Positions 1 to 64,000 of a stretch of 64,000 nt of DNA are shown piece by piece. Numbering within the stretch: the first letter of the stretch is position 1; every line of letters begins with the position of its first letter. The stretch is taken from contig NZ_JADQDR010000005.1 of NCBI RefSeq assembly GCF_015694705.1, positions 124,001 through 188,000 on the forward strand, in the 5' to 3' direction. Both the position numbers and the translations under genes were made by a program. The DNA is from Pontibacter rufus (lineage in GTDB: Bacteria > Bacteroidota > Bacteroidia > Cytophagales > Hymenobacteraceae). The notes beneath the pieces were generated by a model. The model ran no database searches. It saw nothing but the letters and a program-made list of their open reading frames with translations, and had not been told where the DNA came from.

Positions 1-1865
1 GCATCATCCAGGTAACGCGACTTCGGATACTTGTTTATCAGCTCCTGTAAAGCATTTTTGGCTCTGTCGTTTTTATCGATAATACTCAGTATAACGCCTT
101 TCTGAAACAGGGCATAATCCCTGTCCGGCGAGCTGGTCGAAATCACGCGCTCGTACAGGTTCAGGGCTTCGTTGTAGTTTTTGTTGACGTAGTAGGTATC
201 GGCCAGGCGTACGGTAGCGTCGTTATAGTTCGGGTTGCTTGGCTTTATCGCATCCAGGTAAGCCTTGAAATGCGTCATGGCCTTGTCGTACTGCTTGGTG
301 TTGAAATAGGCGTAGCCAATGCCGTAGCGCGACTTGATATAATAGTCTTCTTTGGGATTGGGTGCTGTGCGGAACACCGCTGCATAGCTGTTGATGGCAT
401 CGTTGTAGCGTTGCCCGATGGAGTATGCCTCGCCTTTTAAGAAATGGCTGGCAGCGGTTACTTCTTTGTCGTACGGATACTGCAGCGACTTGTCAAGCGT
501 TTGCACTGCCTGCGGGAACTTGGCGTTATTAAACAAATCCACCCCATAATAGTAAGCTACACGCTGATACGTCTGCAAAATACGCCAGCTTTTCTTTGGC
601 AGGCTCTCGATGTGGCGCATGGCCGCCGCATAGTCGTTAGACCCGAAGTAGGATTCGCTTAGCAGCCTGTCAGCTTCCTCAGCCTGCTCGGAGTCAGGAT
701 AGTTTTCGTTGAAATTTGCCAGCGCATTAATCACCTCCCGGAAGTTGCCCAGCTCATAATTCACCTGCGCATACTTGATGGTGGCCGCCTCTGTTACTTC
801 CTTGTCCTTGTCATTTTTCCGGGCCTGGTCAAATGCGGTGAGGGCAAACTGCTTGTTATCATCTTTCAGATAACTCAGCCCCAGGTAATAAGCCGCATTC
901 TGGCCTAATGAATCTTTCTGCAGCGCCACTTCCTTAAAGTTGGCGATGGCGTTTTTATAGTTGTTGTTCTTGTAATCTGTCAGCGCAATTTTATACTGCA
1001 CCACTGGCTCCAGTTTGCGCTTGCCCTCTGCAAACTGACTGAAATACTTTTCAGCTGTTTTATAATCGGCTTTCTGATAATAGGCATCACCCACCAGCAA
1101 CGCAATTTCATCGGCCTGCTGCACCGGCGGTGTCCTGGCCAGAGCCGCTTCGCCATAGCGAATCAGCTCCGCCATATTGTTTTGCTTGTACAGGATTTCG
1201 GAAATCATGTAAGGCACGATGTTGGCGTACGCCTCGTTCTTTTCCGCTATCTGTAAATCGGCCCTGGCGGCGGCATAGTCGCCATTACGGTAGGCAATAT
1301 AGCCGGCATAGTAGTTAGAGGCATAAGCAAAGCGGTGCTCGTCCTCGCGGAAGCCGGTGGTTTTATTTTTATCGAACCAGATTTTAGCGTTATCGAAATC
1401 TTTGGTGGCGAAATAAGAGTAGCCCAGTTTGAACTCCAGTTCCTTGGTTTGTTTGATACTGAGCAGGTGTAGCGGCGCATCTTTTAAAAGCTCAATAGCC
1501 TTTTTATAATCCTTCTGCTCGAAGTAGTATAGGCCGAGTTCATAGTTTGCCAGCGCTGTTTTAGGATGCGTCGGGTATTTGTGCACGAAGTTGAGGATGA
1601 GCTGCTCGGCATCGGGGTGCAACAGGTATAAACCGCTGAGGGCATAGTAATACTGCGCATCCGCTGTTTTGGCATCGTCGCCAATTAGCTCGATGTACTT
1701 TTTGAATGCTTCCTGCGCCGCGCCATACTTGGCCCGGTCAAACAGCTCCACCCCTTCGTGGAAATACTTCTCATTGGAGGCAAAAACCTGCGTATGCTGC
1801 GCCGCCGCTATGTGCGAGCCGCCCGCCAGTACCGACGCAAGCGCTACTTTGTAAGCTATCTTCAT
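1..1865 (-). CDS. Tetratricopeptide repeat protein, C-terminus cut by window edge
   Basis: The frame is open from an ATG at 1865 down to base 3, giving at least 621 residues with no stop, so the C-terminus lies outside the window. The N-terminus (MKIAYKVALASVLAGGSHIAAAQ) is a signal peptide with a likely cut after AAAQ. The rest is a long run of TPR-like helical hairpins, for example YYALSGLYLL, ANYELGLYYFEQKDYKKAIE, YYLGLSYL and RYGIGYAYFNTKQYDKAM. Large periplasmic TPR proteins like this are common in Bacteroidota and act as scaffolds; the specific partner cannot be told from the sequence. A -7 element TAACTTTG lies about 110 bases upstream on the same strand. The family call is secure, the function is not. 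Confidence 0.85.
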   Translation of the reverse strand, partial: MKIAYKVALASVLAGGSHIAAAQHTQVFASNEKYFHEGVELFDRAKYGAAQEAFKKYIELIGDDAKTADAQYYYALSGLYLLHPDAEQLILNFVHKYPTHPKTALANYELGLYYFEQKDYKKAIELLKDAPLHLLSIKQTKELEFKLGYSYFATKDFDNAKIWFDKNKTTGFREDEHRFAYASNYYAGYIAYRNGDYAAARADLQIAEKNEAYANIVPYMISEILYKQNNMAELIRYGEAALARTPPVQQADEIALLVGDAYYQKADYKTAEKYFSQFAEGKRKLEPVVQYKIALTDYKNNNYKNAIANFKEVALQKDSLGQNAAYYLGLSYLKDDNKQFALTAFDQARKNDKDKEVTEAATIKYAQVNYELGNFREVINALANFNENYPDSEQAEEADRLLSESYFGSNDYAAAMRHIESLPKKSWRILQTYQRVAYYYGVDLFNNAKFPQAVQTLDKSLQYPYDKEVTAASHFLKGEAYSIGQRYNDAINSYAAVFRTAPNPKEDYYIKSRYGIGYAYFNTKQYDKAMTHFKAYLDAIKPSNPNYNDATVRLADTYYVNKNYNEALNLYERVISTSSPDRDYALFQKGVILSIIDKNDRAKNALQELINKYPKSRYLDD

Positions 1866-1971
1866 ATGTTTCTTCACCTGCCCGCAAAGGCAAAATTGTA
1901 CTGTAATGAGAGGAAGTATAAAATCCTGTTTCAACTGCCCCGGCATCTGTTCCGCCAGGGCAAGTTGTGTT

Positions 1972-1979
1972 CAAAGTTA
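1972..1979 (-). promoter_or_regulatory. Candidate -7 element for the TPR gene
   Basis: The plus strand reads CAAAGTTA, which is TAACTTTG on the minus strand and matches the Bacteroidota TAnnTTTG element. It lies about 107 bases upstream of the ATG at 1865. No clear -33 TTG was seen at the right spacing. Confidence 0.4.
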
Positions 1980-2101
1980 GTAAAATTTAGAAAGCGGCAG
2001 CCTCCTTTTGCGACTATATTCTTCCGGCGCCGCCGGTATGATACTTATACAATGGAACAAACCTGCAGAATATTGTCTGCTGTGGAAAACTTGATGCCAG
2101 C

Positions 2102-3166: not shown

Positions 3167-3362
3167 AAGTATAAAGCGGCAGTTGCGCACCGCTCCTGCA
3201 AATTTAAGGTATAGCTGCTAAAGTTAAAGTATAAATTGCAGGCAGGGCATTGTTGTGGGTGTAAGTATAAGGGAGCAGTTTATACCTGCCGCGGCTCCTC
3301 TCCTACAAATTTAAACCTTCCTAGAGCAAGATGAAGGGAATGTTTGAAAATAAAAAGTATAA
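3167..3362. repeat. Cluster of four AAGTATAA octamers
   Basis: Exact AAGTATAA copies lie at 3167-3174, 3227-3234, 3263-3270 and 3355-3362, all in the same orientation, between holA and the toxin-antitoxin pair. This is the densest cluster of a word that is repeated throughout the window (see findings). Confidence 0.8.
3199..3313 (-). promoter_or_regulatory. Two candidate -7 elements upstream of holA
   Basis: The plus strand carries CAAATTTA at 3199-3206 and again at 3306-3313. Each reads TAAATTTG on the minus strand and matches TAnnTTTG. The nearer one would give a leader of about 45 bases for holA. The same stretch has three of four clustered AAGTATAA octamers. Confidence 0.4.
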
Positions 3363-4013: not shown

Positions 4014-4097
4014 GACAAATTCTTTGTATCAAGTTTAATATTTTAAGTTCGTGTCCTTTATACTTTTTCTTTTTATGGCATGTTGCCTAATGGTTTA

Positions 4098-6044: not shown

Positions 6045-6162
6045 TGCATTATGTATAGAGTTGGTAACTTCCTCATCTCCATTATCATCATCCAATATAG
6101 CAAAATAAGTATAAAGTATAGCTATATTCTACCGGTGCAATCCCAATCTCACAACTCTTTTT

Positions 6163-6195: not shown

Positions 6196-7500
6196 ATGAA
6201 TTTGATAGAAGAATTGCGTTGGAGAGGCATGCTCCATGATTTCATGCCAGGTACCGAAGAGCAACTGGCCAGCGGCATGACGTCCGGTTACATCGGCTTC
6301 GACCCAACCGCTACATCCCTGCACATCGGCAACCTGGCTACCATTATGCTGCTGGTGCACCTGCAGCGCGCGGGCCACAAACCCATTGCGCTGGTAGGCG
6401 GCGCTACAGGTATGATCGGTGACCCTTCCGGCAAATCGGCGGAACGCAACCTGCTGGACGAAGCAACGCTGCAAGCCAACCAGCAAGGTATAAAAGCGCA
6501 GCTCGAGAAGTTCCTGGATTTTAACAGCGGCGCCAATTCTGCCGAAATCGTGAACAACTACGACTGGTTTAAAGAGTTCAGCTTTTTGGGCTTTTTGCGC
6601 GAAGTGGGCAAGCACCTGACGGTAAATTACATGATGGCGAAAGATTCGGTGAAGAAACGCATCAGCGCCGATGAGGAAGGCGACCGTGCCGAGGGCCTGT
6701 CGTTTACCGAGTTCTCGTACCAGCTGATACAGGGCTATGACTTTTACCACCTCTACAAGTATAAAAACGTGCGCCTGCAGATGGGTGCTTCTGACCAGTG
6801 GGGCAACATCACCACCGGTACCGAACTGATACGCCGCATCGACGGTGGCAAAGCCTTTGCGCTGGTGGGCAAGCTCGTTACCAAAGCAGACGGCACCAAG
6901 TTCGGTAAATCGGAAGGCGGCAACGTATGGCTTGATCCCGAACTGACTTCGCCTTACAAGTTTTACCAGTTCTGGCTGAACCTCTCCGATGAGGAAGCAC
7001 AGAAACTGATAAAGGTGTATACACTGCTCTCAGAACAGGAGATAGAAAGCATATACGAAGAGCACAAATCGGCTCCGCATCTGCGTGCGCTACAGAAAGC
7101 CCTGGCTAAGGATGTTACAATTCGCGTGCACTCCGAAGAAGCATACATGGCGGCTGTGGAAGCATCAGAAATTTTATTCGGAAAAGGTGATTTGGCTACG
7201 TTAAAGGGCCTGAAAGAGGATGTTTTGCTGTCGGTGTTCGAAGGTGTGCCGCAGATAGAGGTGGCAGCAACGGCTTATGAGCAAACAGGCACCGTCAGCG
7301 ATTTGCTGTCGGATGTAACCGGCGGACAGGTTTTCGAATCTAAGGGCGAGGCCAAGCGCATGATCAAGAATGGCGGCGTGAGCATCAACCGCGAAAAAGT
7401 GCTTAACCCCGACGATGCCGTGGCCTTTGATCTGTTGCAGCAAAAGTACCTGGTGGTGCAGAAAGGAAAGAAGAACTACTACCTTATTACAGTAAAGTAG
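6196..7500 (+). CDS. tyrS: Tyrosyl-tRNA synthetase
   Basis: The enzyme charges tRNA-Tyr with tyrosine in the cytoplasm. The 434-residue protein has the class I signatures: the HIGH motif in [11 protein letters not shown] (near residue 46) and the KMSKS variant KFGKSEGG (near 236). Tyrosine-binding elements include [20 protein letters not shown] (near 190-207). The C-terminal S4 RNA-binding domain is seen in [19 protein letters not shown]. Length is normal for the bacterial TyrRS-S type. It has its own -7 element and is closed by a strong hairpin terminator. It forms the boundary between the cassette island and the conserved core. Confidence 0.97.
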
Positions 7501-9320: not shown

Positions 9321-10823
9321 ATGAGAAAAATAAATAAAATACTGGTAGCCAACCGCGGTGAAATTGCCCTGCGGGTGATGCGCACAGCCCGTGAAATGGG
9401 CATAAAAACGGTAGCCATCTTCAGCGAAGCCGACCGCAATGCCCTGCACGTGCGCTTTGCCGATGAAGCCGTATGTGTGGGAGGCCCCAAATCCAGTGAA
9501 TCATACCTGCGCGGCGATAAGATCATTGAAGTGTGCCGGCAGCTGCAAGTTGATGCCATTCATCCGGGCTACGGCTTTTTGTCAGAGAATGCCGGTTTTG
9601 CGAAAATGGCTGCGGCAGCCGGCATCATCTTTATTGGCCCTTCTCCCGAAGCTATCGAATTGATGGGCAGTAAGCTGGCCGCAAAAGCTGCCGTAGCCAA
9701 ATATAATATTCCGATGGTGCCCGGCACCGAAGAGGCAATTACGGATGTAGAGGCAGCCAAACTGATTGCGCAGCAGGTAGGCTTTCCTATACTTATCAAG
9801 GCAAGCGCGGGCGGCGGCGGCAAAGGCATGCGCGTGGTGGAGCGCGTTGCTGATTTTGAGGAGCAAATGCAGCTGGCCGTAAGCGAGGCAACTTCAGCTT
9901 TCGGCGACGGCTCGGTGTTTATCGAGAAGTATATCGGTTCGCCGCGCCACATCGAAATACAGGTGCTGGGCGATACACACGGTCATACCGTAAGCTTGTT
10001 TGAGCGCGAATGCTCCATACAGCGCCGCCACCAGAAAGTAATTGAAGAAGCGCCTTCTGCTATACTGACACCCGCGCTTCGGGAGGAAATGGGCCGCTGC
10101 GCCGTGAACGTAGCCAAAGCCTGTGATTATGTGGGTGCCGGCACGGTGGAGTTTCTGCTGGATGAAAACATGAACTTTTACTTCCTGGAGATGAACACCC
10201 GCCTGCAGGTAGAGCATCCGGTAACAGAGCAGATCACAGGCCTGGACCTGGTGAAAGAGCAGATCCTGATTGCAGAAGGCCAGCCGCTGGGTTTCGCGCA
10301 GGAAGATTTACACATCAACGGCCATGCCCTGGAGCTACGCGTGTATGCCGAAGATCCGGCTAACAACTTCCTCCCGGACATTGGCCGACTTGAGACGTAC
10401 AAGCGCCCGCAAGGCCCTGGCGTGCGCGTGGATGATGGCTTTGAACAAGGTATGGATATCCCGATTTACTATGATCCTATGATTGCCAAACTGGTAACCT
10501 TCGGCAAAGACCGCCAGGAAGCCATAGACAAAATGCTGCGCGCCATTGATGAATACCAGATAACGGGTATAGAAACGACGCTCTCCTTCGGCAGGTATGT
10601 GCTGCAGCATCCGGCATTCGTAAGCGGTCATTTTGATACCAAGTTTATTGAGCGGTATTTTACGCCGGAGGCCTTAAGGGCCAAAGAAGATGAGGCCGCA
10701 GATGAGGTTGCAGCTGTATTGGCTGCCGTACTCCTGAATGCGCGCAAGCCAGATAGTGCTACGGCAACTATCGCGTCTTCAGTTCCTGCTGTTTCCGGCT
10801 GGCGCAAAAACCGCTTAAAATAG
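9321..10823 (+). CDS. accC: Biotin carboxylase subunit (acetyl/propionyl-CoA carboxylase)
   Basis: The enzyme carboxylates biotin on its carrier protein using ATP and bicarbonate. Motifs in order: ILVANRGEIALRVMRTAR at the start, HPGYGFLSEN, the ATP-grasp Gly loop KASAGGGGKGMRVV, RECSIQRRHQKVIEEAPS and EMNTRLQVEHPVTE. The C-terminus runs some 50 residues beyond the usual AccC end and is Ala-rich without a biotinyl domain. The upstream in-frame ATG at 9297 would add eight unlikely residues, so MRKINKIL at 9321 is preferred, giving 500 residues. No accB or carboxyltransferase gene is adjacent, so whether it serves acetyl-CoA or propionyl-CoA carboxylase cannot be decided. Confidence 0.93.
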   Translation: MRKINKILVANRGEIALRVMRTAREMGIKTVAIFSEADRNALHVRFADEAVCVGGPKSSESYLRGDKIIEVCRQLQVDAIHPGYGFLSENAGFAKMAAAAGIIFIGPSPEAIELMGSKLAAKAAVAKYNIPMVPGTEEAITDVEAAKLIAQQVGFPILIKASAGGGGKGMRVVERVADFEEQMQLAVSEATSAFGDGSVFIEKYIGSPRHIEIQVLGDTHGHTVSLFERECSIQRRHQKVIEEAPSAILTPALREEMGRCAVNVAKACDYVGAGTVEFLLDENMNFYFLEMNTRLQVEHPVTEQITGLDLVKEQILIAEGQPLGFAQEDLHINGHALELRVYAEDPANNFLPDIGRLETYKRPQGPGVRVDDGFEQGMDIPIYYDPMIAKLVTFGKDRQEAIDKMLRAIDEYQITGIETTLSFGRYVLQHPAFVSGHFDTKFIERYFTPEALRAKEDEAADEVAAVLAAVLLNARKPDSATATIASSVPAVSGWRKNRLK

Positions 10824-10834
10824 GCCCCGTTTAC

Positions 10835-10896
10835 AAGAGCCACTAAGTATAAAGGCGCTGTAGTTTACTGCAGCGCCTTTATACTTAGTGGCTCTT
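10835..10896. terminator. Terminator built from paired AAGTATAA octamers
   Basis: Arms at 10835-10860 and 10871-10896 are perfect 26-base reverse complements with a 10-base loop. Each arm carries the octamer (AAGTATAA at 10845-10852, TTATACTT at 10879-10886). It lies between the convergent biotin carboxylase and bshB1 genes. Confidence 0.9.
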
Positions 10897-10950
10897 CTAT
10901 ATTTATACTTTATGCACCTGCTCTTTCGGATTTGTAATTACCAAGTGCTG

Positions 10951-10985
10951 AAAGCCCTCGCAGCGTGCGCAGCTCCTGCGAAGTC
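10951..10985. repeat. REP-like hairpin repeat, copy 1
   Basis: CCCTCGCAGCGTGCGCAGCT followed by CCTGCGAAG. It aligns with a second copy at 13925-13960, with changes on both sides of the stem that keep pairing (GC against GC here, AC against GT there) and an almost unchanged loop. Confidence 0.5.
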
Positions 10986-10995
10986 AATGCTATAC

Positions 10996-11715
10996 TTACA
11001 CCAAATCAAACAGGCTGCGCACACCTATCAGGCGCTCCTTTGTGAAGCCCTCGCCATACTTAGCGCCAATGGCATGGCCCAGTTCGAGCGCGCGCGCTTC
11101 GATAAACAGCAAAAACTCCGGCGAAGAGATATAGGTGTTGGGTGAGCTGTCGTCGGGGTTGTAAAACTGGGATTTAAAAGCGCGGATGGTTTCCATCTTC
11201 TGTTCCCAGTAAGGTGTAATATCCACCACCACATCAGGAGTTATCAGCCGATCCTGAATATAATGATATACTACTTTGGGCCGCCATACCTCCTGTTGCT
11301 GTCCTTGTGCATCCGTTGTTTCAATCATTCTGAGGCCGGATTTAAAACAGGCTTCCGATACAAGTTCTGAACCGCGCCCATGATCCGGATGCCGGTCATG
11401 TATGGCGTTCATCAGCACGATTTCCGGTTGGTACTGGCGCAGCTTCTCAATTATTTTAAGTTGATGCGCCTTGTCGTTTATGAAGAAGCCATCGGCAAAG
11501 CCCAGATTATCCCGCACCTGCAGTCCCATCACTTTGGCGGAAGCCTCCGCCTCGGCAGCCCTTGTTTCGGCAGTGCCGCGTGTGCCCAACTCCCCCAATG
11601 TTAAATCAACAATGCCCACTTTTTTCCCGGCTGCAATGTGCGCAATCAGGGTGCCGGCGCAGCCAAGCTCTACATCATCTGGATGCGAGGCAAAAGCAAG
11701 AATATCAAGTTTCAT
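10996..11715 (-). CDS. bshB1: Bacillithiol biosynthesis deacetylase BshB1
   Basis: A LmbE/PIG-L-type zinc deacetylase of 239 residues that removes the acetyl group from GlcNAc-malate, the second step of bacillithiol synthesis. The zinc motif AHPDD variant is FASHPDDVELGCAGTL at the N-terminus, and the downstream metal His lies in NAIHDRHPDHGRGSELV. The end (EARALELGHAIGAKYGEGF) is characteristic of BshB1. The frame opens at 11757, but MKLDILAF at 11715 is the family start and avoids overlap with the upstream gene, leaving 16 bases between the two, which suggests co-transcription with the M23 peptidase gene. Bacillithiol production is common in Bacteroidota. Confidence 0.93.
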   Translation of the reverse strand: MKLDILAFASHPDDVELGCAGTLIAHIAAGKKVGIVDLTLGELGTRGTAETRAAEAEASAKVMGLQVRDNLGFADGFFINDKAHQLKIIEKLRQYQPEIVLMNAIHDRHPDHGRGSELVSEACFKSGLRMIETTDAQGQQQEVWRPKVVYHYIQDRLITPDVVVDITPYWEQKMETIRAFKSQFYNPDDSSPNTYISSPEFLLFIEARALELGHAIGAKYGEGFTKERLIGVRSLFDLV

Positions 11716-19974: not shown

Positions 19975-20013
19975 AAACCCTTTGTAAGTATAAACTTGCA
20001 GAGGGTTTTTTAT
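19975..20013 (+). terminator. Terminator of tRNA-Met
   Basis: AAACCCTTTGTAAGT (19975-19989) pairs with ACTTGCAGAGGGTTT (19994-20008) with two mismatches, followed by a T run. An AAGTATAA octamer spans the left arm and loop (19986-19993). Confidence 0.85.
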
Positions 20014-42009: not shown

Positions 42010-42037
42010 CTTTATACTTACCAGCTTATTTTAAAGG

Positions 42038-45271: not shown

Positions 45272-45300
45272 AAGTATAAAATCACATCGGTTTTATACTT
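45272..45300. terminator. Terminator formed by paired octamers
   Basis: AAGTATAAAA (45272-45281) pairs with TTTTATACTT (45291-45300). It lies just beyond the end of the GH3 gene on the minus strand, followed there by additional T-rich DNA, and a third octamer occurs at about 45313. Confidence 0.7.
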
Positions 45301-45319
45301 GCCATCCGGGAGTTTATAC

Positions 45320-48318: not shown

Positions 48319-50481
48319 TTATTTCTCTTTATTTATTTTTCTGATTGCCTGTTGAATTTCCGGGTTGCTCATAAATAACTTCCAAATCAGGCCACTACGG
48401 TAGTTCTCGATCATTACCGTAACAGGTGCCTGGTTTAAGCCCATGTAGAGTGGTGACACCCAGTTTTCATCCAGGTTGAAGGCGTCCCGGAAACCATAGG
48501 TGCCCCACAAAAAGCTGCCATAATTGCGGTAATAATTCTTCAGTGCCTGCATGGACTGCTCTGGCGTATACGGGAATGAAGCCAGCGCGCCTGTAGGCGT
48601 TATCTTTCCATGATCTGCATGCGGCACAGGCTCATCAGCAGAATAGCCCCAGGGACCGTCGCTGGCGGTCAGGCCCCAGCTGCGTTCACCATAACCATCA
48701 TGATGCTCCGGATTTTCGACACAATACCTGTAGTTGATAAGGGCAATGGCACGGTTGTTCCGGAAATAGTTGGTATACTTGTCCTCAATTTTATGCGGAT
48801 CAGGCCCCATAAACGAATAATGTATGAAAAAGAGCGGTCCGCCATCTGAGACACCCACAGGCAGCTGAATGCCAAAATAAGTGTTACCGTTGGTATAGGC
48901 AGCCCCTTCGCTCGTCTGGCCCCAAGCGGTTCTGTACTGCTGCGCCTTGCTGCTCTGGCTGGCCCAGCCGCTGTAATACATGCTGGCTGGTATACTATGT
49001 GTGGGTGAGGCAATGCCAAGCAGGTATACAACCATCGTTTCGTTCCAGCCGATAAGTTGGTGGCTCAGCACCCAGGCTTGATCCGGCGACCAGTGCCAGG
49101 TCAGAAAGTCTGTTTCCGGGGCTTTCCGGAACCAGTCCCATTCCACACCGCGCCATAATTTGGTGATGGTATTGCGTATTTCTTTTTCCTGCTCATTGTC
49201 TTGTGTGAAGTAAGCTTTGGCAGCCAGCAGGCCCTGCATCAGGAAAGCAGTTTCAACTAAGTCAGCGCCATTATCTTTTAGTCCGAAGAAAGGTTCTACT
49301 TTGCCAGTTTTGCCACTGATAAAATGCGGGAAAGCTCCGTGAAACTTCTCTGCTTTATCCAGAAAACGCACTATTTGCCGGAATCGCTCCACGCCCTGCC
49401 CCCGCGTAATCCACCCGCGCTCTATGCCGGTAAGTATAGCCATGATGCCGAAGCCCGAAGCGCCGGAAGCCACCATCGTGGTGCGGCCCGGAATGTTCTC
49501 CAGCGCCAGCCCGCTGTTGGGCTCTGCTCCTTCCCAATAATAACGGAAGCTGGCTTCCTGCACCATTGTCAGCAGCTCTTCATCCGTCATAGGCCTTGTG
49601 GAAGCGCTCACAACAGCTGATGTGGATGTCTCGTTATAGGCGTTGTCCAGCAGGCTGATTTTGTAGTAGAAGGTCTGCCCGACCGTGTCCACGTAATCGG
49701 CGTAGCGGCTGTAGAGCGGCGGCTGTATGGCTACCGGCCTGAAGGTCTTATTGTCAGAAGACCGGTATACTTTAATATAGCGCACTGCCGGGTCTGTTAT
49801 TTTTTGCCATACTATGTCCACATGTTTTTCATAGCCATTGGCCTGAAGTAATTGTGGCAAAACATTTATACTTGCTGCTTTCGCTGAGGGCACCAGTTCC
49901 AGCTGATCGAGGTATAATTCATGCAGCTTACCATCATCGGTCTGCTGCCGGAAAGCGATGACGTCCACTTGCTCTGGCTTCTGAAATGCCAGATCTTTAA
50001 AACTGCTGAGCGGCACCTCCACTGTTACCCACTCACCTGGTTTATAGTTCCTGATATAGTTTTGCAGCGGCAGAAACGCTGATGTCTTCTCTGCTTCGCG
50101 CATGCCAATGGCGATGGCCGGCAAGGCAGCCGGCGCTGTATTCGACTTGGCAAACAACCGGAACACCAGTTTTTGCTGAGGCTGGAAAAAGTCCATACCC
50201 CGCAGCGGGTGGTACAGCACTTCTGCCTGCCACCTGCCTCCCGGTGCCGATACATATTGCAGTTCCAGTGCATTTCCGGGCGTAAAAGACACCTCCCCTG
50301 TTACTGGTAATTTACCAGTACTGTTCTTCACCCAGCTTGGCGAAGTATAGCCGGCCGAACTGTAGAAATAGTTCTTCGGCATCGGGCTGTTGTCAAAAAA
50401 AACACGGGTATAGGGTATTTCCTGCCCCAGCGCTTTAACATGGATGAGTAATACTAAAAGAAGGTGTATACCATATTTCAT
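48319..50481 (-). CDS. GH144 endo-beta-1,2-glucanase-type protein with N-terminal domains
   Basis: A 720-residue exported protein (signal GIHLLLVLLIHVKALGQ). Residues 20-215 form a beta-rich carbohydrate-binding-like domain, 220-310 an FnIII-like domain (VDIVWQKITDPAVRYIKVY), and 310-720 the glucoamylase-like PF10091 catalytic domain used by GH144 (EASFRYYWEGAEPNSGLALE; GASGFGIMAILTGIERGW; LWRGVEWDWFRK; WHWSPDQAWVLSHQLIGWNE). GH144 founders are endo-beta-1,2-glucanases. The catalytic domain is parallel to the second GH144 in the locus, suggesting a division of labour such as long against short chains. Function by family. Confidence 0.85.
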   Translation of the reverse strand: MKYGIHLLLVLLIHVKALGQEIPYTRVFFDNSPMPKNYFYSSAGYTSPSWVKNSTGKLPVTGEVSFTPGNALELQYVSAPGGRWQAEVLYHPLRGMDFFQPQQKLVFRLFAKSNTAPAALPAIAIGMREAEKTSAFLPLQNYIRNYKPGEWVTVEVPLSSFKDLAFQKPEQVDVIAFRQQTDDGKLHELYLDQLELVPSAKAASINVLPQLLQANGYEKHVDIVWQKITDPAVRYIKVYRSSDNKTFRPVAIQPPLYSRYADYVDTVGQTFYYKISLLDNAYNETSTSAVVSASTRPMTDEELLTMVQEASFRYYWEGAEPNSGLALENIPGRTTMVASGASGFGIMAILTGIERGWITRGQGVERFRQIVRFLDKAEKFHGAFPHFISGKTGKVEPFFGLKDNGADLVETAFLMQGLLAAKAYFTQDNEQEKEIRNTITKLWRGVEWDWFRKAPETDFLTWHWSPDQAWVLSHQLIGWNETMVVYLLGIASPTHSIPASMYYSGWASQSSKAQQYRTAWGQTSEGAAYTNGNTYFGIQLPVGVSDGGPLFFIHYSFMGPDPHKIEDKYTNYFRNNRAIALINYRYCVENPEHHDGYGERSWGLTASDGPWGYSADEPVPHADHGKITPTGALASFPYTPEQSMQALKNYYRNYGSFLWGTYGFRDAFNLDENWVSPLYMGLNQAPVTVMIENYRSGLIWKLFMSNPEIQQAIRKINKEK

Positions 50482-50547: not shown

Positions 50548-52281
50548 CTATTCCACCTTTACTACTTTTGATCTTGCAGATACACCATTTTCATTAAAGG
50601 ATTCTACTGCAAAATAATAGGTCTGATCCACACCCAGGCTCCTCAGATACAGCTCATTTTCACCATACACCATCCAGGAACTATACAGTTTATCCGGCGC
50701 AATGCCCCAGAGCACATTATATCCCTGGCTTTTAGGCTGTTTGTCCCAGGAGATGCGGGCGTTGCGGCGGTCCTGCTCCCGTTTTACAGTAAAATCTTTT
50801 ACCCTGCCTGGTGCTTTGCCTTGTCCTAACCCGAACACACGCAAACCGGAGATGGCCAGGTTGGTTGTCGGAATGTGTATGTTGCTGTAACGGATGTAGC
50901 GCACCGTTTGCGGATTGCTGAGTTCCACATAATCGTTGGGTACATCTTTTAGGTTATTTTTGCGGTCTACCAGCGTTGTCCAGCTTTTACCATCTGTAGA
51001 GCCTTCTATCACATACTGATGATAGAGCCCCGGCACCCGGCCGTAGAGATCCGATTTGTAATCGTGGTAGTTCAACTGAATGGCATATACTTTGCCGGGC
51101 TTTTGCAAATCTATTTCTACCCACTGCTTCTCATCGTTTTTTGCTGCAACCCAGAATGTTTTGATGTTTTCGTCCACCAGGTTTTCGGGCTTGAAGTTCT
51201 CGAGCGTGGAGGAGACTTTCACGGGCTTGTTGTAGGACAGCACCATCCAGCCGGCAAATTCGCCCATTTTACCTGCCACAGTTTGCGCAAAATGCGGGTA
51301 ATCCCCAAAGTAGGTGTTCACATACATCAGCTCGTCCTCATCAAAGTAAGCAGGATACATGCTGATGCGGCGCTCCCAGTTGACATTCACGGAAATAGCC
51401 ATTGATGCAAAATGCCAGTATTGCCCGTTCGGGCCAACCACCGTACTGCCATGACCTGCTCCGTTTGCAAATCCGCCCGGCTTGTAAGATATAGGATTGT
51501 TTGACGCGTAAGTATAGGGCCCCAGTGGGGAATCGCTCACATACACCCCGTCGCCATATACATTAAACTCTGTGCCCGGCGCGGCATATTGCAGGTAATA
51601 TTTGTTGTTGTGCTTTGTCATCCAGGGGCCTTCAATGTAGCCTCTGGCTGTATCGCTGTGGTTCTCGCCAAAGCGCTCCCAGCCATGCTTGTCAGCCTCC
51701 AGGTTAAAGAGTTCATATGTTTTTTCGGAGGGACTGAACCGGTGGTTTCTGTTCAGCTTCTTTGCCCGTATCGGATACACATTGGAGGAGCCCCAGAACA
51801 TGTAGGCCTGCCCGTCATCATCTATAAACAGGTCCGGATCCTGCAAGTCATTCAGAATGGAAGGCACTCCTTTCCAGTCGCCTTTCTTCGGATTGTCGGT
51901 GTACAGGATGCTCATGGAGCCGGAAGGATCGCCGGCCATGTATAAAACGGAATCTTTGTAATTGTGTGCTGCCGGGGCATTAGAACCCTGAAAGTACCAT
52001 TTCTCCGGTGAAATAAAGTTCCAGTGCAGCAGATCGGTGGAATGCCAGTAGCCCATAGAGCGGGTAACAAACATGTAGTATTCGTCGCGGAATTCCACCA
52101 CAGCCGGATCAGCGCCTGAGCGATACGAAATATCTTCGTTGGAATTATAGATGGCGTAAGTATAATCGATATTCAGGGGATTGCAATAGGTGCGCATTTG
52201 CGGCGATTGCGCCCGGGCTATGGAAAAGCAGCAGAGCGTGGTTATCAGCAGGAAAGAGAACAAGTAGCGCATTTTCTTCAT
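50548..52281 (-). CDS. GH43-type glycosidase with F5/8C and FnIII domains
   Basis: A 577-residue exported protein (signal LFSFLLITTLCCFSIARAQ). The five-bladed propeller carries the GH43-type acids: Asp in RSGADPAVVEFRDEYYMF, Asp in NDLQDPDLFIDDDGQAYM and Glu in RGYIEGPWMTKHNNKYY. Next is a discoidin F5/8C-type sugar-binding domain (WVEIDLQKPGKVYAIQLNY; YHQYVIEGSTDGKSW) and an FnIII domain at the end (ARISWDKQPKSQGYNVLWG). It is in the middle of the operon between the two GH144 genes. Its link to beta-1,2-glucan is unclear, as GH43 enzymes usually act on arabinan, xylan or galactan; it may remove a side chain. Confidence 0.85.
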   Translation of the reverse strand: MKKMRYLFSFLLITTLCCFSIARAQSPQMRTYCNPLNIDYTYAIYNSNEDISYRSGADPAVVEFRDEYYMFVTRSMGYWHSTDLLHWNFISPEKWYFQGSNAPAAHNYKDSVLYMAGDPSGSMSILYTDNPKKGDWKGVPSILNDLQDPDLFIDDDGQAYMFWGSSNVYPIRAKKLNRNHRFSPSEKTYELFNLEADKHGWERFGENHSDTARGYIEGPWMTKHNNKYYLQYAAPGTEFNVYGDGVYVSDSPLGPYTYASNNPISYKPGGFANGAGHGSTVVGPNGQYWHFASMAISVNVNWERRISMYPAYFDEDELMYVNTYFGDYPHFAQTVAGKMGEFAGWMVLSYNKPVKVSSTLENFKPENLVDENIKTFWVAAKNDEKQWVEIDLQKPGKVYAIQLNYHDYKSDLYGRVPGLYHQYVIEGSTDGKSWTTLVDRKNNLKDVPNDYVELSNPQTVRYIRYSNIHIPTTNLAISGLRVFGLGQGKAPGRVKDFTVKREQDRRNARISWDKQPKSQGYNVLWGIAPDKLYSSWMVYGENELYLRSLGVDQTYYFAVESFNENGVSARSKVVKVE

Positions 52282-52293
52282 AGGATTTATACT

Positions 52294-53667
52294 TTACTTA
52301 AGTTTTGGACTTTTGAAATCTAGTTTCTTTAAACCAGCCTGCACTTCGGGGCAACTCATAAACAAATCCCAGAGCAAGCCGCTGCGCCCATTTTCGATCA
52401 TCACCACTTCCGGCCCCTGATCAATGCCAAGGTAACGTTGCGGAAACCAGTTTTTTTCTTCGCTGAAGGCATCGTAAAAACCATACTTTCCCCATACTTT
52501 ATCGCCCAGATCCTCATACAAATGCCGTATTACTTTCATCGATTCCTGGGGCGTGTATGGGTAAGACGACAGCGCTGCCGTGGGCGAAATCACACCTAAA
52601 TCGTGGGTGGGACTGTGGCCGGCGTAGCCGTCTACGGAGTAACTGGCGGTGAGGCCCCAGCAGTCTTCACCATACCCTTCGTAATTTTTCGGGTTGTCTA
52701 TGGCGTAAGCCACATTCACCAAAGTATGGTTCTGGTTATGCGTCCAGTAATCGGCATAGCGGTCTGTGAGGCCGCGCGGATCCAGTCCGAGGTAGGAGTA
52801 ATGCGCCCAGAAAAGCGGACCGACACTGCCATGGTGCCCGTTATGCTCGAGCGCAATTTTATAGCCGTAAGGCGTGGCATCTGCTCTGATGTCGCCGCTC
52901 CGTGCCCAGCCTTCGTGGTATACTTCAGGCGGTATGGTATGCGTGGGCGATGCCGCTGCCAGCACATACATAATCAGGCACTCGTTATAGCCCTGCACCG
53001 GGAAGTTCATCGCCCAGGCCTTATCCGGCGACCAGTGCCAGTACAGCACATTCTGGCCGTGGCGGTACCAGTCCCACTCCACCCCGCGCCATAGTTTATC
53101 GATTTGCGCGGCCAGGGCTTTTTCCTCTTCGTTGCCATCAGCAAAATACTGGCGTACACACAGCAGTCCCTGCACCAGAAAAGCAGTTTCCACCAAATCG
53201 CCGCCATTGTCGTTCTGGCTGAAGGGTTTCACTTTGCCGGTCTCCCCTTCCATCCAGTGCGGCCACGCACCATGAAAGCGGTCTGCCTTTTCCAGGAAAT
53301 TCGTTATCTGCTGCAGGCGTTCAAAGCCCTGTTCTCTGGTGATAAAGCCGCGCTCGATGCCGACCAGAATAGCCATCACCCCGAAACCCGTAGCACCCGT
53401 GGTCACCACATGCTGATCGTTCTGCGGATAATCATTGTCAAGGTGAATGCGCTCAGCCGCTGCGCCAGAGTTAGGCTCTGCCCCATCCCAGAAATACTGA
53501 AAAGTATTTTGCTGCACTTTTGTGAGTAGTTCCTCGTCGCTTAATCTGGTGGTATCTGCAGCCGGCGGAGTTGCTTTTGGTGTGGCAGCAGATGTGTCAG
53601 CCGGTTTGTTGTTACAACTATACAACCACAGCGGCATAGCGAGGAGTAAGTATAAGCGTTTTTTCAT
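52294..53667 (-). CDS. GH144 endo-beta-1,2-glucanase-type lipoprotein
   Basis: A 457-residue protein with a lipoprotein signal (LYLLLAMPLWLYSC), then a Pro/Ala/Thr linker and one PF10091/GH144 catalytic domain (QNTFQYFWDGAEPNSGAAAE; GATGFGVMAILVGIERGF; KLWRGVEWDWYRHGQNVLYW; TASYSVDGYAGHSPTHD). It is likely surface-anchored by lipid, next to the SusC/SusD pair, and would make the first cuts in the glucan. It lies 12 bases upstream of the GH43-type gene and 115 bases downstream of susD, with a terminator-like hairpin in that gap. Confidence 0.87.
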   Translation of the reverse strand: MKKRLYLLLAMPLWLYSCNNKPADTSAATPKATPPAADTTRLSDEELLTKVQQNTFQYFWDGAEPNSGAAAERIHLDNDYPQNDQHVVTTGATGFGVMAILVGIERGFITREQGFERLQQITNFLEKADRFHGAWPHWMEGETGKVKPFSQNDNGGDLVETAFLVQGLLCVRQYFADGNEEEKALAAQIDKLWRGVEWDWYRHGQNVLYWHWSPDKAWAMNFPVQGYNECLIMYVLAAASPTHTIPPEVYHEGWARSGDIRADATPYGYKIALEHNGHHGSVGPLFWAHYSYLGLDPRGLTDRYADYWTHNQNHTLVNVAYAIDNPKNYEGYGEDCWGLTASYSVDGYAGHSPTHDLGVISPTAALSSYPYTPQESMKVIRHLYEDLGDKVWGKYGFYDAFSEEKNWFPQRYLGIDQGPEVVMIENGRSGLLWDLFMSCPEVQAGLKKLDFKSPKLK

Positions 53668-53732
53668 CAGTTTATATTTGATAGGTTTAGCGTTTCCGCT
53701 CCATCATCAACAGGATAAACAAGTATAAAAAA

Positions 53733-55282: not shown

Positions 55283-58249
55283 TTAGAAAGTAACATTTAC
55301 ACCCAGGTTATAGGTAGCAGAAAGCGGGTAGACGTTCCTGTCTATGCCCTGGCTTATCGGCGAACCTCCTACTTCAGGTGAAAAACCGTTGTAATCAAAC
55401 CAGGTTACCGGGTTCTGGGCATTCAGGTATATTCTAAAGTTCTGCATCTTCCAGCTGTTTACCAGCGAAGTCGGCAGGTTATAGCCTATTTGCAGGTTAC
55501 GTATCCGTATATAATCGCCGCTCTCCACATAAAAATCATTCGGATCAAGGTTGCTGCCGGTCAGATCTGCCGAAGGATAAGCGTTGGATGTGTTGGCGCC
55601 ATGCCAGCGGTTGTTAAAGAAATCTACCGAGAAGTTCTCGTTACCGTAGCGCACGTTTCTGTTGCCATTATAAATATCAACGTCGCCTACGCCCTGAATG
55701 TCTAACTGCAAGTCAAAATTTCTGTAGCGGAACCCGGTGTTAATGCCATACACGAAGCCTGGATTAGGATTACCGATGATGGTTTTATCCCGCTGATCAA
55801 TTACCCCGTCATCATTCAGATCTCTGTACCTGAAATCTCCGGGAGCGGCAGCAGGTTGGGCCGAGCCGGCAACTTCCTGTTCGTCCTGGAAAATACCGGC
55901 TACTTCATAACCATAAAAAGAACCGATTGGGTCACCTATACGCGTAATGCTAACCTGATAACCGCCCACGGGCAGGTTACCGCTATAGAATGCGTTATTA
56001 CCCGTTTCGATGTCTTTTACCTCATTGTTATTGAAGGACATGTTGAATCCGATATTGTAACCTATATCAGCCGAGATATCATTGGTCCAACCGGCAGACA
56101 ACTCAAGCCCGCGGTTCTGGAAGGTGGCGTAGTTTCCTCTTATTTCACCGGTTAACCCCAGCGAACCCAGGTTTGTGAGGCCAAAAATGGCATTCTCTGT
56201 TTTTTTGTTGTACCAGTCGGCTTCTACAGTTAACCTGTTGTTGAGGAAGCCCATCTCTAAACCTAAATCTGTCTCCTTTATCACTTCCCAGAATAAGCTG
56301 GATGTCACCGTTTCAGTAATGTTCCGCCCCGGATAAAATACGCCGTTAAAAATAGCGCCATAGCGGGAACTTGTACTTACCGGCAGCACAAAGATGCTGG
56401 AAGGTATATTGTTGTTACCCAGTTTACCCCAACTCGCCCTTACCTTGAGGTTATCGAAAATGGATTGGTTCTGCATAAAGTCTTCTTCTGTTACACGCCA
56501 TCCCAGGCCGATGGAAGGAAAGTATTCCCACCTGTCGCTGCTCGGGAACTTAGAAGAGGCATCATACCGGAGCGTAGCCGTGAGCAGATATTTGTCCTGG
56601 TAGGAATAGTTTACACGGCCAAAGTATGAGAGGAATGTATACCTGTCAGCATCGTTACTGATATTAAAAGTGCTTGGATCGCCTAAGTCCAAGTATAAGT
56701 TTGCTGCGGAACGGTATTCCACATCATTTACGGAACCGGTAAGTCCTTCTGATTTATTTTCCTGTGAGGAAGTACCCAGCAATAATGTTATATCATGATC
56801 GCCAAAGGTTTTATCATAGGTCAGAGTATTCTCCCACAACCAGCTGGAAAACTTACTTCTGGATTGGGTTAAAAGACTTCTGGATGCATATTGTACACTT
56901 GTAAGAGAATCCTGCGAACGGAAGTTGCGGTATTCGTTGATGCCATAGTTGATACCTAAACTGGTCCGGAAGGTGAAATCTTTCAGGAACTTCACTTCCC
57001 CGAAAGCATTGCCTGTCAGCTGCTGCCCGTTTGATTCCTGGTTATACCAGTCGAGTGAAGCCTGGGGATTGGCAAAGTTGCCTACATTAAAGTCGAAGGA
57101 ATCGCCATAGTTGCCATTCGCTTTCCTCACAGGAATGATGGGCGGCGCCACAAAAGCCTGGTAAAAAATATCGCCCGGAATATCAGTGGAATTGTAGTTG
57201 TTGAAAATGCCGTTGTAGCCCACCTTGATGTTATCCGTAATATTAAAGTCAGTTTGGAGCCTGGCTGTAATCCGCTTGTAGTCATTCCCTTTCACGATGC
57301 CTTCCTGGTTCAGGTAGCCGGCGCTGGCGCTGTACGTTACTTTTTCCGAGCCGCCGGACGCTGTAACCTGGTGGTTGTGAATCATGGCTGTCTGCAGGAT
57401 TTGATCGAACCAGTCAGTAGTAGGAAAGTCGCTGCGAATCAGCTCGGAACCATTTTTTTCATTAATCAGCGTGGCATATTGCTGCGCATTGGCCATTTCC
57501 AGCTTATTGGTAACACGCTGCACGCCCACATACCCATTGTAGTTGATACGTTGCTCTCCTGCCTGCCCGCGTTTTGTTGTTACCAGTACCACACCATTGG
57601 CAGCTCGTACACCGTAAATCGCAGCACTGGAAGCATCCTTCAGAATCTCTATGGAAGCAATATCAGCGGGGTTCAGAAAGCTCAGGTTGTCTACAAAAGT
57701 ACCATCCACTACATACAACGGGTCCGAACTGCCCAGAGCCGAGCCGGCCCCGCGTATCCTGATCTGCGGGGCTGCGCCGGGAGCGCCGGAATTGGTGATA
57801 GAAACACCGGCCACTTTACCCTGCAGCGCACTCACTGCGTTCTGGGAAGACTGGCGGGCTATCTCCTCTCCTTTTACAGAACTGATAGAGCCGGTTACAT
57901 CGCGTTTCTCCTGCGTGCCATAGCCGACCACCACAACCTGTTCCAGTTGTTGCGCCGAGATAGTCAGCGCCACATTAACAGTAGTTTGCCCGTTGATGGG
58001 TACCTGCCGGCGTTCGTAGCCTAAATAATCGACAACCAAAGTGCCGTCTGCCGGCGCAGAAATAGTATAATTACCATTAACATCAGTTTGGGTTCCGCTG
58101 CTTGTACCCAGCACAGCAACACCCGCTCCTATCAGGGGCTGGCCGCTGGTGGAATCCGTTACTTGTCCACTGATAGTGATCATGTCCTGTGCGAAGAGAG
58201 GACAAACGGAAAGCAGACACATCAGGAGTAGTAAAATGTTTTTCTTCAT
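55283..58249 (-). CDS. susC: SusC/RagA TonB-linked outer membrane transporter
   Basis: A 988-residue TonB-dependent glycan importer. It has a signal peptide (ILLLLMCLLSVCPLFAQ), a carboxypeptidase-D regulatory-like domain (ITISGQVTDSTSGQPLIGAG), a TonB-box region with QVVVVGYGTQEKRDVTGS, a plug (SNAVSALQGKVAGVSI-like segment; IRGAGSALGSSDPLYVVDGT) and the 22-strand barrel ending in NLGVNVTF. It lacks an N-terminal extension for anti-sigma signalling, so regulation is not through a FecR-type route. It is the first gene of the locus; no regulator gene is next to it. Confidence 0.95.
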   Translation of the reverse strand: MKKNILLLLMCLLSVCPLFAQDMITISGQVTDSTSGQPLIGAGVAVLGTSSGTQTDVNGNYTISAPADGTLVVDYLGYERRQVPINGQTTVNVALTISAQQLEQVVVVGYGTQEKRDVTGSISSVKGEEIARQSSQNAVSALQGKVAGVSITNSGAPGAAPQIRIRGAGSALGSSDPLYVVDGTFVDNLSFLNPADIASIEILKDASSAAIYGVRAANGVVLVTTKRGQAGEQRINYNGYVGVQRVTNKLEMANAQQYATLINEKNGSELIRSDFPTTDWFDQILQTAMIHNHQVTASGGSEKVTYSASAGYLNQEGIVKGNDYKRITARLQTDFNITDNIKVGYNGIFNNYNSTDIPGDIFYQAFVAPPIIPVRKANGNYGDSFDFNVGNFANPQASLDWYNQESNGQQLTGNAFGEVKFLKDFTFRTSLGINYGINEYRNFRSQDSLTSVQYASRSLLTQSRSKFSSWLWENTLTYDKTFGDHDITLLLGTSSQENKSEGLTGSVNDVEYRSAANLYLDLGDPSTFNISNDADRYTFLSYFGRVNYSYQDKYLLTATLRYDASSKFPSSDRWEYFPSIGLGWRVTEEDFMQNQSIFDNLKVRASWGKLGNNNIPSSIFVLPVSTSSRYGAIFNGVFYPGRNITETVTSSLFWEVIKETDLGLEMGFLNNRLTVEADWYNKKTENAIFGLTNLGSLGLTGEIRGNYATFQNRGLELSAGWTNDISADIGYNIGFNMSFNNNEVKDIETGNNAFYSGNLPVGGYQVSITRIGDPIGSFYGYEVAGIFQDEQEVAGSAQPAAAPGDFRYRDLNDDGVIDQRDKTIIGNPNPGFVYGINTGFRYRNFDLQLDIQGVGDVDIYNGNRNVRYGNENFSVDFFNNRWHGANTSNAYPSADLTGSNLDPNDFYVESGDYIRIRNLQIGYNLPTSLVNSWKMQNFRIYLNAQNPVTWFDYNGFSPEVGGSPISQGIDRNVYPLSATYNLGVNVTF

Positions 58250-58683
58250 AGCAGGTCGTTTTGATTTGAGTATGGTTAAAATATTATAAGGAAGGTGAAA
58301 TAGTAATCATCAGAAAAAGACCAGAATGAAAGACTGCAGAAACCTGTCTCATCCACTTTTACTAGTCATACTTGGTATACGTGTGCGGTTTTTAGTAGAT
58401 CAGTTTAGGCACCGAAAAAGAGGGCTGCTGTATGGGTTTCGGGGAGTTGGCATGGTAAATACCTGTATTCGGCAAAGATCCTGGGGTATGGCCTAACCTA
58501 TAATGCCGGCCTGTTTACCTGCCTGCGCTGCTATTTCGCCTCCAACTTGTTTACAAATGGGGATGTTGGTGTGATAAAGTATAAGACAGGGCGGCGCAGC
58601 GCAACTAAACAGGCATTATCAGGTGTAAGGCCGTAACCGTCTTTTAGCTGCCCCGTTAGCAGAGTATAAACAACCCTTAAGGC
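58250..58683. other. Divergent regulatory region of the utilisation locus and the GH15 unit
   Basis: No gene was seen. The region must hold the promoters for susC (minus) and the GH15 gene (plus). One AAGTATAA copy lies at 58577-58584. I found no exact TAnnTTTG element for either direction, so transcription may depend on an activator or an alternative sigma factor. Confidence 0.5.
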
Positions 58684-63027: not shown

Positions 63028-63178
63028 GTTGTTATCTTTTAAATTAAACGAGTGTGTCTACTATTTGCAACGTAACATTCTGATAGCAGGTTAATTAATC
63101 TTCAAATATGGCAAAACGAGGCAGGTAAAAATGAGATTGCCCGCTGTTATACTTCTCTTATTCAGCCCTGCCCGGCTG

Positions 63179-63508
63179 TTATTTGTCAAGCTCTTTTCCT
63201 AAGTCCTCTAACTGCTTCATAAAAGCTTCTACTTTCTCATCGGCATACGGGCCATAGGCGTTAGAAACAGTACCTTTTATTCCTGAGTTTGTCTCCAGCA
63301 CATACAGGATAGCTTCATCGCCCGGATTTGTTTCGCCCTCGAAGCGGTAAAAATTCACGATGCGTACCTGCTCCGGCGTAAACTGCTCTTGCCCATCCAG
63401 GGTGCAAAGCCGCCCATCGTCCGAAACTTTAAAATTATGCTTATAACCGTCTTTGTAGAGCTGGTTAAGGATGGTAACCATGGAGGTGAGTTCTACTTTG
63501 TCTTCCAT
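63179..63508 (-). CDS. Small conserved Bacteroidota protein of unknown function
   Basis: A 109-residue soluble protein, starting MEDKVELTSMVTILNQLYKD. Recognisable family segments are GYKHNFKVSDDGRL, IVNFYRFEGETNPGDEAILY and ETNSGIKGTVSNAYGPYAD. Homologues are widespread in Bacteroidota and often carry a misleading phosphoribosylpyrophosphate synthetase-type name, but no synthetase motif is visible. The open frame continues upstream to 63697, where the residues look non-coding, so the ATG at 63508 is preferred (63535 would add nine residues). Confidence 0.8.
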   Translation of the reverse strand: MEDKVELTSMVTILNQLYKDGYKHNFKVSDDGRLCTLDGQEQFTPEQVRIVNFYRFEGETNPGDEAILYVLETNSGIKGTVSNAYGPYADEKVEAFMKQLEDLGKELDK

Positions 63509-63864
63509 AAATATGTTTGTTAATCGTTCCTTCATACTTTTATACTTTGCTATACGCAAAAAGCCGGACGTATCGGTGGAAGATTCCGGCTTACTTATCA
63601 ACGGACATAGATGCGATATGATAACGAAACAGGGCCTTGCCCCACACGTGCAGCCTGGCGCACAAGGATACAGCTTAACTGTCAACATCATTATCACCCT
63701 GTTGCGCCATAGGCGGTAGCTTACGTTTTTTTTCTTTGGGCTTCAGAGCGATAATGCCAAGACGGCTGCTATTTTTTTGAATACTTTTATGGCGCAGCGG
63801 TATCAAAAAGCAAAAGGGGCTGTTCCGAATACCGGAACAGCCCCTTTTGCATGTAAGTAAATTG
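63509..63864. other. Intergenic stretch with one octamer and a terminator
   Basis: No convincing gene. It contains a TTATACTT copy at 63540-63547 and the perfect hairpin at 63810-63850 that ends the last gene. Confidence 0.5.
63810..63850. terminator. Terminator of the T9SS cargo gene
   Basis: 63810-63827 pairs perfectly with 63833-63850 (18 bp, loop AATAC), with A/T-rich bases next to it. It lies 14 bases past the stop of the partial gene on the minus strand. Confidence 0.85.
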
Positions 63865-64000
63865 CTAGTGTTTCACCATCAGCAGTTGGCGTATGGATAT
63901 ATCCCGGTAAGTAACCTGCAAAACATATACGCCCTGTTGCCACTTGCTGACATCTATCTGCACATCTGCCAGCATGCCGGGGGTAAGCTCAGAGGTTCTG
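63865..64000 (-). CDS. C-terminus of a T9SS-secreted protein (partial)
   Basis: Only the last 45 residues are in the window; the stop is at 63865-63867 and the start lies beyond 64000. The segment ELTPGMLADVQIDVSKWQQG followed by VYVLQVTYRDISIRQLLMVK has the form of a type A T9SS sorting domain: a 'xxGxYxLxV' strand, then a strand with basic residues, ending in a Lys-rich tail. The protein is thus predicted to cross the outer membrane by T9SS. What the rest does cannot be seen. Confidence 0.8.
   Translation of the reverse strand, partial: RTSELTPGMLADVQIDVSKWQQGVYVLQVTYRDISIRQLLMVKH

Follow-up and report, generated by a model that had tools for sequence, protein, structure and literature searches.

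A TATA-containing octamer with dialects across Pontibacter: a candidate self-recognition word resembling DNA uptake sequences

The octamer AAGTATAA is strongly over-represented in a 64,000-nucleotide stretch of the Pontibacter rufus genome (5.03 Mb; contig C17, positions 124001-188000), the whole of which is called the window here. It is a sharply bounded word, and related words built around the same TATA take its place in other members of the genus. By analogy with characterized systems, AAGTATAA is probably (rough probability 0.58) the local dialect of a Pontibacter self-recognition word that functions in the manner of a DNA uptake sequence (DUS).

Exact matching gives 49 copies in the window, 29 as AAGTATAA and 20 as TTATACTT on the plus strand, the number that a first-pass annotation of the window had reached by hand, and no octamer of the window is more frequent. 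The annotation had expected about two copies from base composition, and equal base frequencies also give about 2. The whole genome holds 4293 copies (2084 and 2209 by strand), as against 189 (81 and 108) of a control word obtained by reversing AAGTATAA. In 386 kb of the same genome, 341 copies were found where an order-3 Markov background predicts 46.3 and an order-4 background, which contains AAGTATAA itself, predicts 101.9; the enrichment thus persists over the higher-order backgrounds in which, it had been suggested, it might vanish. An order-2 background with the word's first seven bases masked predicts 16.9 copies, and against a masked background the word is enriched 20-fold in P. rufus and 65-fold in a second genome, G107.

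The limits of the word are narrow. Position 8 tolerates A, G and C and hardly T, AAGTATA being followed most often by A, then by G, then by C, and rarely by T. The next base on the 3' side is A at 185 of 340 sites and T at 41 of 340 in P. rufus; the corresponding counts in G107 are 171 and 14 of 301. Forms with a single mismatch at any other position show little or no enrichment, with mild exceptions that in P. rufus reach about sixfold at most and fall at positions 1, 2 and 7. Alignment of 939 AAGTAT sites from -15 to +24 revealed a preference at the next two bases and almost no information in the flanks; almost no conserved sequence of the kind seen in repetitive extragenic palindromes (REP) or miniature inverted-repeat transposable elements (MITE) was found outside the octamer in this alignment.

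Copies occur both in genes and between them, as had been noted at first: 177 of those in the 386 kb are coding and 135 intergenic, and 10 of the 341 straddle gene ends, the genes being called by a simple longest-open-frame script. When synonymous codons are shuffled, 23.9 (sd 4.5) coding copies are expected in place of the 177 observed, and an origin of the word in codon pairs was therefore rejected; dinucleotide shuffling leaves 5.3 intergenic copies in place of 135. The initial remark that coding copies often read Lys-Tyr-Lys holds to the extent that this is the commonest single reading (33 of 177), but Lys-Tyr-Lys/Asn together make up only 49 of 177. Coding copies lie about equally on the coding (87) and the opposite strand (90), and all reading frames are used; the rarest, with 6 copies, reads TAA, so that it is possible solely at a gene end. 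The density per kb is 2.30 between genes vs 0.55 within them in P. rufus, and 4.55 vs 0.88 in G107. This higher intergenic density, about four- to fivefold, holds for convergent, divergent and co-directional spaces alike. The first and last tenths of genes together contain 44 of 177 copies in P. rufus, 42 of 148 in G107 and 17 of 104 in genome G105, a slight excess in two of the three sets.

In the 50 genomes of the genus, each word was counted against its reversed control, and a genome was called worded when the ratio exceeded 10-fold. At least one of three words, AAGTATAA, AGGTATAG and AACTATAG, passes this threshold in 39 of the 50. AAGTATAA, the AAG word, does so in 23 genomes, with about 450-1470 copies per Mb; AGGTATAG exceeds its control 23- to 79-fold in 12; and AACTATAG does so 32- to 51-fold in five genomes and 10- and 18-fold in a further two, reaching 1824 per Mb in genome G119. 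All three words have TATA in common and share the frame ARSTATAR. Among nine PNPase loci of named Pontibacter, five carry AAGTATAA (P. cellulosilyticus and P. mucosus among them), two AGGTATAG (including P. amylolyticus) and one AACTATAG (P. fetidus), and one is unclear. Outside the genus, the ratio for AAGTATAA is at most 2.4-fold among 100 other genomes of the family (536 copies vs 226, G003) and about 2.1-fold among 177 genomes from other families of the order (414 vs 199, G317). Ratios in unworded Pontibacter genomes, 1.3 to about 3, are like these levels. Seven genomes (G008, G023, G095, G109, G113, G125 and G127) are wordless, a term that here refers to samples of 20-40 kb per genome and whole-genome counts of a few words, which other words could escape.

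Two of the dialects follow the phylogeny of ComEC. In a protein tree of 49 rows (G043, with an open frame of 220 amino acids, was excluded), the 11 AGGTATAG genomes form a single clade (support 88/99, not starred), and the five AACTATAG genomes fall together with the two-word genomes G028 and G055 in another (100/100). The four dialect labels require 7 changes on this tree vs 23.8 in shuffles. AAGTATAA is scattered over the remaining worded lineages, and deep forks are open; because of this spread AAGTATAA may be the older word. Two words are both more than 10-fold enriched in three genomes: G013, G028 and G055. Within the AACTATAG clade the AAG and AAC words trade off, with counts of 3911 and 2617 in G028, 4476 and 2002 in G055, 2125 and 6288 in G013, and 921 and 7058 in G083. 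Conversion of one dialect into another in place is rare: an AAG word stands at 14 of 135 AACTATAG sites when these are read in two-word genomes, and at 16 of 168 AGGTATAG sites when they are read in AAG genomes. A new dialect therefore seems to occupy fresh positions as the copies of its predecessor are lost, which appears to be the pattern expected from a changed reader combined with molecular drive.

The copies are also preserved by descent, as the first-pass annotation had proposed to examine in relatives. Alignments of the comEC region (at least 400 columns and at least 75% identity) were made between paired genomes of the same dialect, drawn from 37 single-dialect genomes. At 75-80% identity, AAGTATAA is intact in 579 of 1059 comparisons of orthologous sites vs 570 of 4236 flanking octamers, about four times as often (4.1-fold), and AGGTATAG in 250 of 538 vs 349 of 2152 (2.9-fold); words near alignment ends are uncounted, and the pairs are non-independent, since both directions and shared sites enter. 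For alignments of 80-85% identity, the corresponding ratios are 2.6 for AAGTATAA, 2.4 for AGGTATAG and 3.9 for AACTATAG, and they are smaller still at higher identity. Where the words differ, differences are seen at all eight positions, most often as transitions at 1, 2, 7 and 8; thus no single type of mutation creates the words. Words are sparse in both accessory regions inspected: an island of 13.7 kb with resolvase and VapE/primase genes has 2, and a polysaccharide region of G105 has 7 in 20 kb.

Two proteins that would serve uptake are widespread in the genus. ComEC (PF03772) is above the cut-off in all 50 genomes, with an internal stop in G043 and G087, and a helix-hairpin-helix (HhH) protein has an open frame of 304-346 amino acids in 49 of 50, being broken in G087; the P. 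rufus copy has three HHH_3 stretches and compares with the periplasmic HhH protein that is essential in Riemerella (PMC8459023). In G087, which is a single contig, the genes for ComEC and the HhH protein are both frameshifted (L209, L249) and the neighbours with homologues are full length, an apparent loss of competence to judge from the frames. With 461 words per Mb, this genome ranks last but one in density among the 23 AAG genomes. In the mechanism proposed here, a surface protein would bind the word in duplex DNA and favour its import, and ComEC with the periplasmic HhH protein would carry the DNA inward. Recombination would then propagate the alleles that bear the word until it occupied the thousands of sites able to tolerate it, a process of molecular drive. 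Drift in the specificity of the reader would switch the dialect and leave the old word to decay, so that genomes with two words would arise. Since the genus yielded no convincing ATPase of a type IV pilus, the reader would be part of a different route across the outer membrane, plausibly one similar to that which a transposon screen delineated in Riemerella. More broadly it is possible, at somewhat less than even odds, that Bacteroidota have a sequence-specific uptake of their own without type IV pili, in which an outer-membrane or surface reader of about seven bp around TATA drifts between clades, genomes are rewritten with the new word and groups of Pontibacter species become genetically isolated from each other. 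The two-word genomes would then have been caught midway through a dialect switch.

Several observations weigh against an uptake word. No convincing ATPase of the PilB/PilT/GspE type, as used by type IV pili and type II secretion, was found in the 50 genomes: with the PF00437 profile all 50 showed short P-loop matches scoring no higher than 25.9 bits, just above the cut-off in three genomes, in a search that left the pilin families aside. Genome G071 has intact ComEC and HhH proteins yet the lowest word density (449 per Mb), G043 has a broken ComEC yet 5041 copies of AGGTATAG, and the seven wordless genomes retain intact frames for both proteins. No reader was found among the tested neighbours of comEC and the HhH gene, which all belong to other families. 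For comEC, 15 adjacent frames in P. rufus were set against the matching loci in the 49 other genomes and six were scanned with Pfam; for the HhH gene, 10 adjacent frames were set against 5 other genomes and five were scanned. Conservation of AACTATAG at 75-80% identity is the weakest of the three words, with 58 of 191 cases intact vs 119 of 764 flanking octamers (1.9-fold). Head-to-head pairing is slight, with 10 such pairs within 60 bp among the 341 copies, about 4.5 being expected by uniform scatter. Finally, a literature search that covered few subscription papers found no report of competence in Pontibacter. A competence cluster around comEC or the HhH gene was considered and rejected, the scanned neighbours being PhoH, a RecQ-type helicase, a sodium symporter, a cyclophilin and members of other families.

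The likeness to DUS drawn in the first-pass annotation has therefore to be qualified. It has become much stronger because there are three related TATA words, two of which track clades, and transitional genomes with two words; its inverted pairing has turned out to be minor, and no convincing pilus or type II secretion ATPase accompanies it. Because the pilus feature was not found and the uptake role is argued by analogy, the Pontibacter word is not classed with the known pilus-based uptake systems.

Eight DUS dialects with a CTG core are reported for the Neisseriaceae (PMC3630211). The Pontibacter word is like them in being short and unpalindromic, in its very many copies and in dialects that follow clades, with TATA as the core in place of CTG. 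It is unlike them in its length of seven to eight bases, the Neisseriaceae word having ten and being the ligand of ComP, a type IV pilin. The uptake signal sequence (USS) of Pasteurellaceae is found, like the Pontibacter word, on both strands and in genes as well as between them, and it is reported to be biased to gene termini (PMC2346458), where two of three Pontibacter sets show their slight excess. However, the H. influenzae word has extra conserved parts beside its core (PMC1939737), and the Pontibacter word shows no more than a slight preference for the base that follows it; uptake in Pasteurellaceae and Neisseriaceae, moreover, uses type IV pili (PMC7965970). Closer in phylogeny is Riemerella (Flavobacteriaceae), which is also a member of the Bacteroidota and in which ComEC and a periplasmic HhH protein are essential, together with genes unlike known machineries (PMC8459023). 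R. columbina favours its own DNA (PMC7965970). Unlike the present case, the k-mer table for Riemerella and Flavobacterium contains A/T-rich words only, left open as putative uptake words (PMC7965970). DUF5689, part of one of the essential Riemerella proteins, was considered as the reader and not adopted, because it occurs in 22 of the 50 Pontibacter genomes and not in P. rufus itself, and the three inspected copies (L211, L216 and L217) directly adjoin SusD-like genes. Beyond the SusD-like gene lie a phospholipase D (PLD)-like gene in L216 and a calcineurin-like phosphoesterase gene in L217.

The best of the rival explanations is modelled on HIP1, the highly iterated palindrome of cyanobacteria, because that word too is replaced by others and tracks methyltransferases. 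A resident methyltransferase recognising the Pontibacter word, coupled to methylation-linked mismatch repair, would create and maintain it, and the dialects would be methyltransferase specificities. HIP1 is likewise very frequent, and in some cyanobacteria it is swapped for an alternate palindrome with a matching methyltransferase (PMC4390886); the palindrome-centred ACCTAGG in isolated species of other genera of the family points the same way. Such an origin is nevertheless unlikely, for HIP1 is palindromic and AAGTATAA and AGGTATAG are not. Two dialects are, besides, each maintained throughout a clade of the ComEC tree, one comprising 11 genomes and the other 7. Restriction-modification genes, by contrast, are usually gained and lost readily. 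A binding site for a nucleoid-associated protein or a regulator, with selection acting on each copy individually, would agree with the higher density between genes, the conservation at orthologous sites and the overlapping direct copies of period 6. It is decidedly improbable, because copies also fall within genes, on either strand, and in every intergenic class, convergent included; and as sister clades use different words and seldom reuse one another's sites, thousands of sites would have to be rewired.

Ranked below the binding site, and quite improbable, is a Chi-like word read by an enzyme of the AddAB/RecBCD type and selected for recombinational repair, one of the options raised at first. 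Chi words are short and non-palindromic, and all 50 genomes encode a protein of about 970-1020 amino acids with a PDDEXK_1 nuclease domain of the AddB/RecB type. The P. rufus copies lean to the locally G-rich strand (203 of 341), but no consistent bias is seen over four genomes (474 of 888 by local GC skew, itself weak and a proxy for the replication strand), the counts being 150 of 301 in G107, 80 of 172 in G105 and 41 of 74 in G083. E. coli Chi is strongly leading-strand biased. Given this near-equal use of the two strands over the four genomes, Chi is disfavoured, and so is a polar site of the FtsK/KOPS (FtsK-orienting polar sequence) kind, on the same 474 of 888 and by the same weak proxy. 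The PDDEXK_1 enzyme is also present in wordless genomes, and the density of AACTATAG in G119 is about eight times that of E. coli Chi, with its 1008 copies in 4.64 Mb (PMC1939737). Scarcely credible, finally, is a functionless origin in a preference for certain codons or dipeptides or in a context-dependent mutation bias. The prominence of Lys-Tyr-Lys among the coding readings would suit it; the small remainder of both coding and intergenic copies after shuffling, the excess conservation at orthologous sites and the fact that most one-mismatch relatives are hardly or not enriched speak against it.

Uptake words have been named for two families, Pasteurellaceae and Neisseriaceae (PMC2346458, PMC7811141). 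Literature searches for the word itself, for uptake words of Bacteroidetes and for over-represented words of Pontibacter or Hymenobacter, with few subscription papers covered, found no report; within the literature searched, the Pontibacter words would be the first dialect system of this kind found in Bacteroidota. If an uptake role is true, they would add a third, unrelated case, again with dialects, from a phylum in which little is known of how DNA is taken up, and would suggest repeated evolution of self-recognition words and their ability to operate through another receptor. Since three of 50 genomes carry two words, the change of dialect could be studied directly. The dialects also supply a covariation signal for locating the gene of the reader.

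Three inverted pairs of AAGTATAA described in the first-pass annotation were confirmed by exact matching and folding. An inverted repeat at 10835-10896 has a stem of 29 pairs, a 4-base loop and one word per arm, at 10845-10852 (plus strand) and 10879-10886 (minus), and folds at -52.1 kcal/mol (z -15.2). The 48-base inverted repeat at 39325-39372, with a stem of 22 pairs and a 4-base loop, carries AAGTATAG and AAGTATAA in each arm, the AAGTATAA copies lying at 39340-39347 (plus) and 39350-39357 (minus), and folds at -34.6 kcal/mol (z -12.3). Both are long inverted repeats with words nested in both arms. The third pair, at 45272-45279 (plus) and 45293-45300 (minus), folds as a hairpin of -19.7 kcal/mol (z -3.9). 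The further statement that copies are often paired in terminators goes too far: pairs are few overall, and none of the three is a proven terminator. A terminator consensus scan, confined to 10700-11050, gave as its sole terminator-like match a different, overlapping small stem.

Over the 386 kb, 4 tail-to-tail pairs lie within 60 bp, about 4.5 being expected by uniform scatter, and neighbours in the same direction are commoner (33 vs about 9 expected). In G107, 14 head-to-head pairs are seen among 301 copies with about 6.8 expected; clustering of the words between genes may explain the head-to-head excess. Foremost among the same-direction neighbours are copies that overlap head to tail with a period of 6 in the form AAGTATAAGTATAA, which occurs 14 times in the P. 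rufus set and 14 times in that of G107. At locus L125 (11072-11109), six AGGTATAG copies overlap in this way in a row, and such overlaps, there and in the 14 pairs of P. rufus, exceed the expectation from uniform scatter. In 40 kb of G083, 20 of 74 AACTATAG copies make up 10 palindromes AACTATAGTT.

The copies in the window are spaced irregularly (mean 1284, sd 1443), even spacing having been one of the checks proposed. Four copies fall within 3167-3362, as first noted, all on the plus strand at 3167-3174, 3227-3234, 3263-3270 and 3355-3362. Besides these and the hairpin arms, exact matches on the plus strand lie at 1914-1921, 6107-6114, 6757-6764, 14290-14297, 19198-19205, 19986-19993, 21408-21415, 21459-21466, 22992-22999, 31268-31275, 31635-31642, 32694-32701, 40364-40371, 42281-42288, 42839-42846, 44080-44087, 48259-48266, 52158-52165, 53648-53655, 53721-53728, 56691-56698 and 58577-58584. 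Those on the minus strand lie at 2787-2794, 4058-4065, 10903-10910, 28092-28099, 33195-33202, 33782-33789, 34448-34455, 40520-40527, 42012-42019, 42872-42879, 45314-45321, 45738-45745, 46548-46555, 49866-49873, 52287-52294, 63147-63154 and 63540-63547. The window genes inspected are ordinary chromosomal ones, encoding for instance tyrosine-tRNA ligase, PNPase, TamB/TamL and a protein sorted by the type IX secretion system (T9SS). The PNPase has its nearest matches in named species of Pontibacter, at identities of up to 88%. A query of plasmid records with a single window protein found no Pontibacter relative.

Some other repeated words were noted along the way. AATATCGA at L039 was rejected as a word, being a local array with 20 of 24 copies within 14.9-16 kb; the apparent words at L088 and L087 are local arrays as well, and AGGTAGAG in G125 is mostly local. 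On contig C1 of G071, a genome of another dialect, at least 39 copies of AGGTATAG recur at a spacing of 64-69 bases (approximately 1944098-1946633), probably as a repeat array such as CRISPR. Weak dialects are possible in G115 (locus L164), where CGGTATA is 2.9-fold over control genome-wide (2060 vs 710), and in G002 (L128-L130, L155 and L193), where the AT-rich TATATAGC has 37 copies vs 5.6 in 100 kb. ACCTAGG, with the core CCTAGG, is absent from most genomes of the other family genera in which it was seen and hugely enriched in isolated ones, including Hymenobacter cavernae (L056); loci are L142 (G004), L251 (G080) and L252 (G137). Its copies number 5096 in G004, 5341 in G015, 5823 in G030, 8746 in G080 and 6326 in G137, with reversed controls of 5-124, totals in which the palindromic ACCTAGGT is counted on both strands. 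ACCTAGG is perhaps a related or HIP1-like system.

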